Shown: positions 59,606-63,917 of the stretch, one piece after another | Layout: every line of letters starts with the position of its first letter | Position numbering within the stretch: position 1 is the first letter of the stretch | From: an uncultured Methanomassiliicoccales archaeon | Lineage (GTDB): Archaea > Thermoplasmatota > Thermoplasmata > Methanomassiliicoccales > Methanomethylophilaceae | NCBI GenBank assembly: GCA_949292635.1 | Contig: CASEZY010000007.1 | Coordinates: 1-64,000 of the forward strand | Length of the DNA: 64,000 nt | Direction: 5' to 3' | The notes under the pieces: generated by a model | Database searches by the model: none | Told to the model about the DNA's origin: nothing | Seen by the model: only the letters and a program-made list of their open reading frames with translations | Program-made: the position numbers and the translations under genes

Positions 59606-62509
59606 TCACTCCAGCAGGATTGCGGGCCTGCCGGGGACGGCGGCCTTGGACTTGCCTGCGGGGTCGTAGATGCCCTCGGCGTCGGTGTCGATGACCTGCA
59701 CCTCGGTACCCAGGTCCGCACCGATGAATCCGGCTGCCGATGTCAGCAGGGTGTTCTCGTCGGTGTCCGCTATCGATCTCACCTTCTCGGGGGTGCTGCG
59801 CATGTGGTCCGCGGCCACCTTCTTGCACAGCTCCGACACGGCCTTCCCGCGGCTCCTGAGCTCCGGGTCCGCCATGCACGTCTTGGTGAGCCCGGGCACG
59901 TCGAGCCTGCCCTCGGACAGCAGGTCCGCGGCGTTGGACACCACCTTCCGCTTCCAGGCGGGGGCGGTGTACAGGATCACCTTGGCGGGCTGCATGCCGG
60001 TGACCTTCACGATCTGCGCGGCATCCGACATCACGTATCTGATCAGGTCCTCGCCGTATTCCGCCTCCGGGCAGTCCAGGGCGGGGTCGTACTCAGGGAA
60101 CTGGGCTTCTGACGCAAGGCCTTCGAAGCCCTCCCTCTCCCAAAGCTCCTCCACGGTGTGGGGGGTCACGGGCATCATGGCGGTGAACCATCTGCGGTAC
60201 ACCTCCCTCAGCGCGGAGCGGCAGTGGCCTCCCCTGCGGGTGTACCACTTCAGGTCGTTGAACATCTCGAAGTAGGCGGTGGAGGCCATCATCCTCAGGT
60301 CAAGGCGGTCCATGGCGTCCCTGATGGTCTTGACATGACCGTTGAATCTGGAGACCAGCCACCTGTCGATCTTCCCCATGGGGATGTCCTCTGCGGAATC
60401 GTCCAGTTCGCCGACGAACGCCTGTATGCGGTCCAGCCTCTGCCTGTAGGAGAGCACGTTCTCCTCGTCCCACTCCACATCCGCGAAGGGCGATGCCACG
60501 TGCGCATAGTACAGCCTGAGGGCGTCCACGCCGTAGGTGTCCGCCGCGCCGGGGATGGGCTGTGCACCACCCTTGGACTTGGAGATCTTGTCCCCCTTGC
60601 CGGTGGTCTTGTTCTTCTTGCCCGTCACATACCAATTGACCATGATGCCCCTGGGCCACTTCTCCTCCGGCAGGATGGCGACGTGGTTCTTCAGGAAGGC
60701 GGGGAAGTGCACGGTCATGTGCTCCTTTCCGCCAAGGTTGAGGTCCAGGGGGTACCAGTAGTTCACGTCCTTGGCTATCTGTTCCAGAAGCTCCGCGGAT
60801 ATGCCGGTCTCCTTGGACACGGCATCCCTGTCGCCGATGCCCAGGATCACGTGGTCGAAGAAGGCCTCGGTCATCTGTTCCGGCTTCAGCCTTCCGTCGT
60901 TGGCGTACATGGATATGCAGTAGTAGATCGGGTAGAGGGTGGAGTCGGAGATGGCCTCGATGATCCACTTGTCGTCGTACGGGAATCTAGTTCCCAGCCA
61001 GTTGCCCAGGCGCACGCAGGCCCTCTCCCTGAACCAGGAGAGCACGCCCTGCACGTTGTTGTAGTACTCTGTGGGCATGATGTCCATGCTCTTGCAGTGC
61101 CTTTGCGTCTCCTCGGTGAGCTGCTTGTCGGCGTAGTTGATGAACCACTGGTCGTCGATCCTGCGGATGAAGACTCTGCGTCCGCACCTGCAGACGACCT
61201 CTTCCGTAAGATCGTAGAACACGTCCGCTTCGCCGGCGTCCAGCATGGCCTGCTTCATGCGGTCCTTGGCCACGTCCACCTTCAGGCCGGCGTACTCGCC
61301 GCAGATGGCGTTCATGCGGCCCATGTGGTAGCCGTCCTTGTAGACCTGCTTCTTCGCCTCAACCAGCTTGGGGTCCCCGGGGGCGGTGATGCCCATGCGG
61401 TCGATGATATCCTTGGCGGGGAACTGTCCGTAGCCCTCCATGTCAATGATCGCTATCGGCACCACGGAATCCAGTAGCTCCTTGGAGAGGTTGAACTCCT
61501 GCTGCATGGCGGTGTCCTTCTTCAGGGCCTCCAGGGAGATCCAGTCGTCGGGCGCGTCCGAGGGGACGGAGGTGACGAGACCGGTACCGACGTCCGGGTC
61601 GCAGAACCTGGCGGGCAGCACCGGGATGTCCCTGTGGATCATGGGGGCGGTGCACATCCATCCGATGAGCTCCCTGCCGGGGATGGCGCCGATGTCCTCG
61701 ATGCCGTCCTTCTGGTGGGACAGCTTCTCCGCGGCCTGGGGCGAGACGATCCATGTCTCGTCGCCGACCTTCACCCTGCGGTACTCCACGTCCGGGTTCA
61801 CCCAGAAGCACACCTGACCGTAGACGGTCTCCGGCCTGAGGGTCGCTGCAATCAGATATTCGTCGCCGTGGCGGAACTTCAGCAGGGTGTATTCCTGCGT
61901 TTCGGCGTTGCCGCCCTTGGAGATGTCGGTTTCGGAAGCATCAACGGCCACCGGTCCGCAGGAGGGGCAGGCCGGAGCGAAGTAGGGTTTCTGTATCAGG
62001 AGGTTCTTGTCGTGGAGCTTGCGGAACTGCCACTGTATGAACTTGGCGTAATCGGGGTAGAGGGTGCAGGTGAATCTGCGCCAGTCGGCCAGGAAGCCGA
62101 AGCGCCTCCAGTACTCGTTCACATACACGCCGTTGAAGAACTCCACCACGTTCATGGGCTCGGTGAGCTCGGCAACCTTCTCCTTGGGGCATCCGTTCCT
62201 GAGGAGGTAGTCGATGGTGTTCTCGTCGCCCTTGCGGATCTTCTCCGCCAGGGAGATGGACCCGTTGCCGGTGGCGTGGGTGCCCACGGGGAACAGGACG
62301 TTGTATCCCGTCATGCGCTTGTAGCGTCCGATGGCGTCCACGTAGCTGAAGCCGCGCATGTGCCCCACATGGAGGTACCCGGTCACCCCGGGGTAGGCGA
62401 ATATCAGCATGTACTTCGGGCGGCCGTCGACCCTGTCGGACCTGTCCAGCCCCTTCTCTGCCCATCTCTTCTGCCACTTCCTCTCCATCTCAGCGTATGC
62501 GGATGCCAT
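59606..62509 (-). CDS. leuS: leucyl-tRNA synthetase, archaeal type
   Basis: 967 residues. HIGH-like YLHVGHMRG near residue 41-49, GDKISKSKGGAQ (KMSKS) near 650, editing domain inserted at about 170-480 with GTGLVTSVPSDAPDDW, and a long C-terminal extension with the anticodon-binding domain and tail (ALRFxGELxx-like). Charges tRNA-Leu. The ATG is the first of its frame; TATA-like TTATAATAAAG lies about 50 bases upstream. Single gene with its own terminator. Confidence 0.97.
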   Translation of the reverse strand: MASAYAEMERKWQKRWAEKGLDRSDRVDGRPKYMLIFAYPGVTGYLHVGHMRGFSYVDAIGRYKRMTGYNVLFPVGTHATGNGSISLAEKIRKGDENTIDYLLRNGCPKEKVAELTEPMNVVEFFNGVYVNEYWRRFGFLADWRRFTCTLYPDYAKFIQWQFRKLHDKNLLIQKPYFAPACPSCGPVAVDASETDISKGGNAETQEYTLLKFRHGDEYLIAATLRPETVYGQVCFWVNPDVEYRRVKVGDETWIVSPQAAEKLSHQKDGIEDIGAIPGRELIGWMCTAPMIHRDIPVLPARFCDPDVGTGLVTSVPSDAPDDWISLEALKKDTAMQQEFNLSKELLDSVVPIAIIDMEGYGQFPAKDIIDRMGITAPGDPKLVEAKKQVYKDGYHMGRMNAICGEYAGLKVDVAKDRMKQAMLDAGEADVFYDLTEEVVCRCGRRVFIRRIDDQWFINYADKQLTEETQRHCKSMDIMPTEYYNNVQGVLSWFRERACVRLGNWLGTRFPYDDKWIIEAISDSTLYPIYYCISMYANDGRLKPEQMTEAFFDHVILGIGDRDAVSKETGISAELLEQIAKDVNYWYPLDLNLGGKEHMTVHFPAFLKNHVAILPEEKWPRGIMVNWYVTGKKNKTTGKGDKISKSKGGAQPIPGAADTYGVDALRLYYAHVASPFADVEWDEENVLSYRQRLDRIQAFVGELDDSAEDIPMGKIDRWLVSRFNGHVKTIRDAMDRLDLRMMASTAYFEMFNDLKWYTRRGGHCRSALREVYRRWFTAMMPVTPHTVEELWEREGFEGLASEAQFPEYDPALDCPEAEYGEDLIRYVMSDAAQIVKVTGMQPAKVILYTAPAWKRKVVSNAADLLSEGRLDVPGLTKTCMADPELRSRGKAVSELCKKVAADHMRSTPEKVRSIADTDENTLLTSAAGFIGADLGTEVQVIDTDAEGIYDPAGKSKAAVPGRPAILLE

Positions 62510-62594
62510 GATCGCCAGCTCCTAGCTTGTATTGCGGCGGGTTAGGCCAAGGTCTTTATTATAATTCGCGATAGGGTAAGCACTATAGAAAGCG

Positions 62595-62631
62595 GGCTCG
62601 GGGACAAATCTTCGTCGTTCCCCCGAAAGCC
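62595..62631. repeat. hairpin near the RHH-ftsZ promoter
   Basis: GGCTCGGGGAC pairs with GTTCCCCCGAAAGCC with a bulge, about 12-base stem-loop. Lies between the leuS promoter and the operator repeats. Confidence 0.4.
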
Positions 62632-62632
62632 T

Positions 62633-62672
62633 GTAGGACATTGTCATACTACTTGTCCTGCAAAGTAGGACA
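62633..62672. promoter_or_regulatory. three copies of a GTAGGACA motif before the RHH-FtsZ operon
   Basis: GTAGGACA at 62633-62640 and 62665-62672 on the + strand and its near-complement TGTCCTGC at 62654-62661. The last copy abuts a TATA box (TTTAAATACC, 62675-62684). Ribbon-helix-helix proteins bind short repeated sites, so these are plausible operators for the regulator encoded next. Confidence 0.6.
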
Positions 62673-62752
62673 TGTTTAAATACCACCTCGCTGATGGAGA
62701 TTATGCTCTGAAAGGGATGGGAACTCTACAGGAGCAAACGCAGGTGAACGAC

Positions 62753-63109
62753 ATGGACGACGAGAAGATCTCACTGAGGATCGGCGGGGACGAGCTTCGC
62801 GAAATCGACGCTTATCTTGCCGAGCACCCCGAGCTCGGAAGCCGTTCTTTGTTCATCAGGACAGCTGTCCGCGAGTACATCGGAAGGGATGCAGATGTAT
62901 CCGCGGGACCGGAACCCGCCGGCAACGGCGTCTTCGTCAGGCTGACGGAGGCGCAGATGGCGGCGCTGGACGCACTGGTCGGCACCATCTACTTCGACCG
63001 CGAAGCGGTGATGTGGTCCCTGGTGTCGAAGCTAATCGGGGCTGAGGGGATGGCCGAGAGCGAGGCCCGCAAGGCCTTCCAGATGGCGACATCCAACATA
63101 CCTCAGTGA
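62753..63109 (+). CDS. tandem ribbon-helix-helix (CopG-like) regulator
   Basis: 118 residues from MDDEKISLRIGGDELREIDAYLAEHPELGSRSLFIRTAVREYI, a ribbon-helix-helix fold, followed by a linker (DADVSAGPEPAGNG) and a second copy-like unit VFVRLTEAQMAALDALVGTIYFDREAVMWSLVSKLI. ATG chosen after CAGGTGA; an in-frame ATG 12 codons earlier is possible. The gene overlaps the FtsZ-like gene's first possible start, so they are one operon, as RHH-FtsZ pairs are in other archaea. Confidence 0.8.
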   Translation: MDDEKISLRIGGDELREIDAYLAEHPELGSRSLFIRTAVREYIGRDADVSAGPEPAGNGVFVRLTEAQMAALDALVGTIYFDREAVMWSLVSKLIGAEGMAESEARKAFQMATSNIPQ

Positions 63110-63120
63110 AAACAGAAGGG

Positions 63121-63882
63121 ATGGCAGAGGCGGGGAGACCCGCCGATGCACTCAAACCGCTTAAGGAAAGGATTGGCATGGACAGCAGCAACGTCGAGAT
63201 CGAGCCCAGGGTGGCAGTGGTCGGGGTCGGCGGAGCCGGATGCAACGCGGTGTCCTTCGTGTACCGCGGCTTCCCGGAGGCCGACGCGGTTGCCATAAAC
63301 ACCGACAGGGATGCACTACACGCCACGCAGGCGGACAGGAAGCTCTACATCTGTAGGTCCGTGACCAAGGGCGAAGGCACCAAGGGGGACAGCCTCCTCG
63401 GACGCAGGTGCGCACAGGCGCATCTGGAGGAGATCGAGGCTGTGCTCTCCGGGTACGACGCGGTGTTCATCGTCGCAGGGATGGGCGGCGGTACCGGCAC
63501 CGGGGCCGCACCTATAGTCGCCGAGATTGCCCAGAGGATGGGACTCATCACCCTCGCCATACCGATAATGCCGTTCTCCTTCGAGACCGCCAGGTCGGAG
63601 AGCGCCGCGTCGGGCCTGGCAAGGCTCAGGTCCGTCTGCAACATGACCCTGCCCGTGAGCAACGATGCTGCCGCATCTTCCATGCCGGACGCCACCGTGC
63701 CCGAGATGTTCAGGGCCGTGAACAAGAGCATAGCGGACTACATCCGCAGGACATCCGCCAAGTTGTCCGACGCATTCGCGGAGGAGCTGGAGGACGTGAT
63801 CGCCCAGGAGGAGGAGAGGCTCCATCCCGGATTCGGCGGGGGTTCTCCCGAGATGCCCCTGGACCAGTCCGCAGACAACTGA
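63121..63882 (+). CDS. short FtsZ-like protein with only the GTPase domain
   Basis: About 253 residues. RVAVVGVGGAGCNAVSF (T1), AINTDRDALH (T2), GEGTKGDSLLGRR (T3, changed from the usual GxGAGxxP), AGMGGGTGTGAAP (T4, tubulin signature), PFSFETARSES (T5). Ends soon after the T6-H7 region (VPEMFRAVNKSIADYIRRTSAKL) with no T7 loop or C-terminal domain. It should bind GTP but not stimulate a neighbour's hydrolysis the usual way. Start uncertain: GTG (63106), this ATG, or ATG (63178). Confidence 0.78.
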   Translation: MAEAGRPADALKPLKERIGMDSSNVEIEPRVAVVGVGGAGCNAVSFVYRGFPEADAVAINTDRDALHATQADRKLYICRSVTKGEGTKGDSLLGRRCAQAHLEEIEAVLSGYDAVFIVAGMGGGTGTGAAPIVAEIAQRMGLITLAIPIMPFSFETARSESAASGLARLRSVCNMTLPVSNDAAASSMPDATVPEMFRAVNKSIADYIRRTSAKLSDAFAEELEDVIAQEEERLHPGFGGGSPEMPLDQSADN

Positions 63883-63899
63883 CGATTAATTCTCTCCCC

Positions 63900-63917
63900 G
63901 CGGGGGGCAACCCCCGC
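63900..63917 (+). terminator. terminator after the FtsZ-like gene
   Basis: Seven-base perfect stem GCGGGGG/CCCCCGC with GCAA loop, then ACAACCCCTTTT. About 18 bases after the stop. The last 80 bases of the window show no gene. Confidence 0.75.

Follow-up and report, generated by a model that had tools for sequence, protein, structure and literature searches.

We report an ftsZ gene that codes for the N-terminal domain (NTD) of the protein alone, in a 64,000-nucleotide stretch of DNA (the window) from an uncultured Methanomassiliicoccales archaeon. The truncated gene is the sole tubulin-family gene in its genome and, as sampled, the whole GTDB family to which the window belongs appears to be without any FtsZ that carries a T7 loop. 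Our preferred reading, to which we give a probability of about 0.5, is that the protein acts as a single-domain GTP-binding switch or adaptor, autoregulated by a tandem ribbon-helix-helix (RHH), CdrS-like protein, in a reduced division apparatus.

An NTD-only derivative of FtsZ2

The gene occupies positions 63178-63882 of the forward strand and encodes 234 amino acids (a GTG at 63106 is an alternative start). Profiles, sequence and an AlphaFold model all agree with the sequence-only reading, which had described an FtsZ-like protein with loops T1 to T6 that ends before T7. Pfam Tubulin (PF00091) matches residues 12-166 at 122 bits (cut-off 33). The TIGR00065 FtsZ equivalog covers residues 5-189, corresponding to model positions 13-199 of 353, with a score of 175.9 bits that lies below its curated equivalog cut-off of 295.2. 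The C-terminus is reached about 50 residues past the start of helix H7, and neither an NxDxxD T7 loop nor an FtsZ_C domain follows. The predicted structure (pLDDT 91.5) consists of a single FtsZ NTD and an extended H7 of 42 residues (residues 174-215 in the AlphaFold secondary structure; codons at 63697-63822, forward strand), after which comes a low-confidence tail of approximately 19 residues. Foldseek aligns the model to FtsZ crystal structures over some 185-190 columns, with an rmsd that is mostly 1.2-1.5 A.

The same architecture is found in 38 distinct relatives from the window's family. Sequence comparison shows that the T7 loop is absent in all of them, and the distance from N182, at the start of H7, to the C-terminus is 47-62 residues; in complete full-length FtsZs of sister families it is approximately 136-189 residues. 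The residues of the GTP pocket (GGAGC, NTD, GGGTGTG, PF, E136 and N162) are near-invariant, so that GTP is probably still bound. The H7 aspartate of FtsZ is replaced by asparagine in 37 of the 38, which is the tubulin state. In three species pairs dN/dS is 0.13-0.20, which indicates purifying selection on the gene; values are lower for the core, and the tail evolves faster.

In our tree, which includes an uncultured Methanomassiliicoccaceae (Thermoplasmatota) record (L131) from among the matches listed, the NTD-only proteins are monophyletic (100/100, and 100/99 with wider sampling). They fall on the FtsZ2 side of a split from FtsZ1-type sequences that is supported by 98/98, and their nearest neighbours are the RHH-linked FtsZ2 proteins of sister families. 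On this phylogeny the NTD-only FtsZ descends from archaeal FtsZ2 with a single origin. The stem branch of the clade is long, at approximately 1.04-1.07 changes per column. Order membership, together with L131, makes Methanomethylophilaceae the probable name of the window's family.

The RHH gene and its promoter

Directly upstream, at 62753-63109 on the forward strand, lies a gene for a putative tandem-RHH regulator of 118 amino acids, whose stop codon is 68 bp upstream of the FtsZ ATG. Its protein gives weak profile matches to RHH_1, CdrS and aCcr1; the haloarchaeal CdrS model NF058555 scores 16.9 bits, below the curated cut-off of 100. Two beta-alpha-alpha units are predicted (E4-9/H12-24/H31-43 and E59-64/H66-78/H83-94), in a low-confidence model with a pLDDT of 62. 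The coupling of ftsZ to this gene, noted previously, is borne out across the family: in every locus with upstream flank the RHH gene stands directly 5' of the NTD-only ftsZ and in the same direction. The divergent neighbour is leuS (leucyl-tRNA synthetase; 59606-62509, reverse strand), which is found on the far side of the RHH gene in 36 of 41 family locus records, so that the order leuS, RHH, ftsZ is conserved. Together iorB and leuS form a stable neighbourhood of the NTD-only ftsZ in the family.

The sequence-only reading also listed three sites in the promoter. Two of these are exact copies of GTAGGACA (at 62633 and 62665), but the third, at 62654, is inverted and carries one mismatch (TGTCCTGC). 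With an additional degenerate site they make up a candidate operator array of four at 62632-62672: TGTAGGACA at 62632, TGTCATACT (the degenerate site) at 62642, TGTCCTGCA at 62654 and AGTAGGACA at 62664, spaced by 10, 12 and 10 bp. A TATA box, TTTAAATA, follows at 62675-62682 on the forward strand, 2 bp past the last operator-like site. In 36 related promoters we counted 47 copies of the palindrome TGT-VNB-ACA upstream of the RHH gene, where dinucleotide shuffles predict 1.1, and 31 of the 36 relatives have it. The sites are typically located 8-11 bp 5' of the TATA box and are often 10-11 bp apart. Such numbers are not produced by chance, and the conserved operator-like array is consistent with autoregulation; to this extent the proposed self-regulated operon is supported by the promoter sequences. 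The RHH-FtsZ2 promoters of sister families contain the same palindrome, but just downstream of the TATA box. Across the window's assembly the pattern AGGACA-N0-6-TTTAWATA has one match, the window promoter; the pattern is strict and a wider regulon is possible.

Operons of this type are already known, since cdrS-ftsZ2 with its RHH division regulator is established in haloarchaea, in Halobacterium and Haloferax (PMC7439475, PMC8406309), and ftsZ2 is frequently found with parD (PMC8178401). The window resembles cdrS-ftsZ2 in having an RHH gene directly 5' of an FtsZ2-type gene (98/98 in the tree) on the same strand, and palindromic operators of the same type are present in sister-family promoters. 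It differs in that the FtsZ has no T7 loop or C-terminal domain, that the RHH protein has two predicted units instead of one, and that the genome holds a single FtsZ-family gene. The suggestion that a self-regulated operon for a truncated tubulin relative would be new thus stands in part: the operon is of the known cdrS-ftsZ2 type, and the new elements are the truncation and the family-wide disappearance of all T7-bearing FtsZs. We found no published description in Methanomassiliicoccales of an NTD-only FtsZ or of the loss of all T7-bearing FtsZs (subscription papers were outside our coverage). A GTPase domain of the tubulin superfamily that lacks both the canonical T7 region and the canonical C-terminal domain has been described as FtsZl1, for which filaments are doubtful (PMC2875224, Makarova and Koonin 2010). 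FtsZl1 shares these absences with the window protein, but its domain is very diverged, is followed by coiled-coil and helical domains and occurs in another genomic context (PMC2875224). The window FtsZ is a close FtsZ2 derivative that keeps T6 and H7, has no extra domain and ends after H7.

Loss of T7-bearing FtsZ in the family

A separate full-length ftsZ was looked for in the 1.48-Mb, 99.9%-complete assembly that contains the window (G000). The tubulin profile identifies the NTD-only ftsZ as the sole tubulin-family gene, a profile built on the second type of FtsZ in relatives again matches this gene only, and the FtsZ_C profile (PF12327) has no match at E <= 1 over the whole assembly; the same profile matches 13 of 14 control genomes. 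A split gene with its C-terminal domain encoded elsewhere is thereby ruled out.

The NTD-only ftsZ is found in 96 of the 102 genomes of the window's GTDB family and in 43 of the 45 good ones, with no match in the other two (G033 and G117). In all family members examined this locus holds the truncated gene, and in none a full-length FtsZ. FtsZ_C is detected in 2 of the 102 genomes, both of which carry a T7-less paralog, and in 45/45 genomes of other Methanomassiliicoccales families, which have several full-length FtsZs each. Where sister-family FtsZ sequences cover the region, the T7 loop reads NLDFNDL or similar. In the canonical FtsZ cycle subunits stack, and each contributes its T7 loop to complete its neighbour's GTPase site. 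With no T7 loop left in the family, as its sequences appear to indicate, the canonical GTPase and treadmilling cycle could not run. As a side observation, sister-family genomes have 3 to 10 tubulin-family genes each (L093, L112, L113, L116), unlike those of the window's family, and include tandem FtsZ1-type duplicates beside nusG/L11.

Many members of the family keep a second, degenerate FtsZ2, which has a C-terminal domain. An RHH gene of its own accompanies it, and it lies beside ribosomal-protein genes (L11/L1/L10 region). It clusters with the RHH-linked FtsZ2 of sister families (95/81). The T7 loop is missing from 14/14 of these paralogs examined, and the T4 glycine loop is decaying in several members (several genera); in one pair we see purifying selection, with a dN/dS of 0.08. 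In the copies of relatives (L078-L088, L095, L096) the RHH gene overlaps each ftsZ. At the syntenic site no FtsZ frame is present in G000, G005, G002, G029, G115 or G116. There G000 and G002 show an RHH frame beside a methyltransferase gene on direct reading; for the other four, antisense frames imply one. In G000 this orphan is a CdrS-like tandem-RHH gene (L213, G000:C10 around 30303; minus-strand frame 2192-2497 of the locus) with a TTGTCCGACA / TGTCCGACA site just upstream of its start codon, and it may cross-regulate the window operon.

A simple history would account for these patterns. The cdrS-ftsZ2 unit would have been duplicated in the common ancestor of the window's family. The first FtsZ2 copy would have shed all that follows H7, leaving a GTP-binding domain that stands by itself, with H7 as a long handle; the second would have kept its C-terminal domain, lost its T7 loop and been deleted in the window species. 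Every T7-bearing FtsZ would also have been lost in the family, making the canonical cycle inoperable.

In the SepF-FtsZ system of archaeal division, SepF binds the FtsZ C-terminal region (PMC8178401). The window genome still encodes a SepF-like protein; unlike that system, the FtsZ C-terminal region is absent and the SepF of the family is strongly diverged or undetected. As the window FtsZ has no C-terminal domain, it offers no C-terminal region to SepF. With the SepF profile, E-values are approximately 1e-12 to 1e-15 in sister families and range from 3e-13 to undetected in the window's family. The frame in G000 (L041, G000:C5:35432-35632) is recognisable by eye, very diverged, and has a profile E of 0.02. 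The decay of SepF in the family apparently parallels the loss of the FtsZ C-terminal region. In several closed family genomes that keep the NTD-only ftsZ, SepF is undetected by profile, which indicates that the two need not work together. For ESCRT-III, the Snf7 profile gave no match above cut-off in 147 genomes; this profile is insensitive for archaeal CdvB, and it matched Sulfolobus only below the cut-off.

Possible roles of the NTD-only protein

We give two readings almost no weight. The gene could be a full-length ftsZ that has become a pseudogene or was misassembled; its shortness speaks for this and nothing further. Across independent assemblies, closed genomes included, 38 distinct sequences have the same end point, and the gene is under purifying selection, so the chance of this is negligible. 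A frameshift or missing 3' end that would restore a T7 loop was looked for and is ruled out, because the 38 relatives end alike. It had also been proposed that the protein caps or poisons FtsZ filaments, and an isolated NTD would indeed be expected to dock on a normal FtsZ filament at one of its ends. This proposal fails since G000 has no other FtsZ, and there is nothing to cap; nor does the sampled family have a T7-bearing FtsZ. A second FtsZ as target is ruled out by the syntenic site in G000, where the RHH gene stands alone beside the methyltransferase gene. Capping can be considered excluded for practical purposes, unless the target were a foreign FtsZ.

Two other readings deserve more weight, though we regard both as unlikely. 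The protein may have left division altogether. It might be a GTP-dependent regulator whose state the RHH protein reads, for example, or have a link, through its leuS and iorB neighbours, with translation or metabolism. The long stem branch, the loss of T7 and the C-terminal domain, the genomes that keep the gene with SepF undetected and the stable leuS and iorB neighbourhood all fit such a departure. However, the CdrS-type operon and the ancestral type of operator are still there, G000 retains a SepF-like protein, and no other division filament system was found (ESCRT-III was not detected, with the insensitive Snf7 profile). On balance we consider a role outside division rather improbable. We are slightly more sceptical still of a division filament formed non-canonically, by NTD-NTD contacts, by the long H7 or by a partner contributing the interface's missing lower half. 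The NTD does have one full face of the longitudinal contact and probably the nucleotide, the model has H7 extended to 42 residues, and many relatives encode a paralog whose C-terminal domain could provide a partner surface. Nonetheless, that paralog is gone from its site in G000 and at least five relatives, which leaves no tubulin-family partner there, and the tail of the NTD-only protein diverges faster than its core. Contacts of a new kind could yet let the protein oligomerise, even into filaments.

We therefore return to the single-domain switch or adaptor. Because of its operon, its ancestry and its uniqueness in the genome, the NTD-only FtsZ probably still takes part in division. It would do so by itself or in small non-canonical oligomers, within a reduced apparatus that in the window species still includes a diverged SepF. 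Its level would be set by the tandem-RHH protein, probably co-transcribed and presumably acting as a repressor on TGTNNNACA sites beside the TATA box. More tentatively, and with doubts that outweigh our confidence, it might be argued that the family divides without a polymerising T7-bearing FtsZ or detectable ESCRT-III, an FtsZ2 relic having replaced the dynamic filament as a GTP-timed switch. Nature would then have parted nucleotide binding from polymer dynamics, with the GTP-binding half of the protein under selection and the other half gone, along with the cycle-competent FtsZs. This raises the questions of what divides these methanogens and what half a tubulin can do. It is also a warning to genome surveys that score FtsZ as present from a match to the GTPase domain.

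A minor observation concerns residues that set the clade apart. C59, V62, D71, C78, H82 and N182 are near-invariant and typical of the NTD-only proteins, and rare or absent in most full-length FtsZs; C78 is common to the NTD-only FtsZ and the RHH-linked FtsZ2 of sister families. Two cysteines and one histidine of this set sit around T3/H3. The set possibly forms a metal site or a partner site, and a metal site might be shared by the clade-typical C59, C78, H82 and C154.
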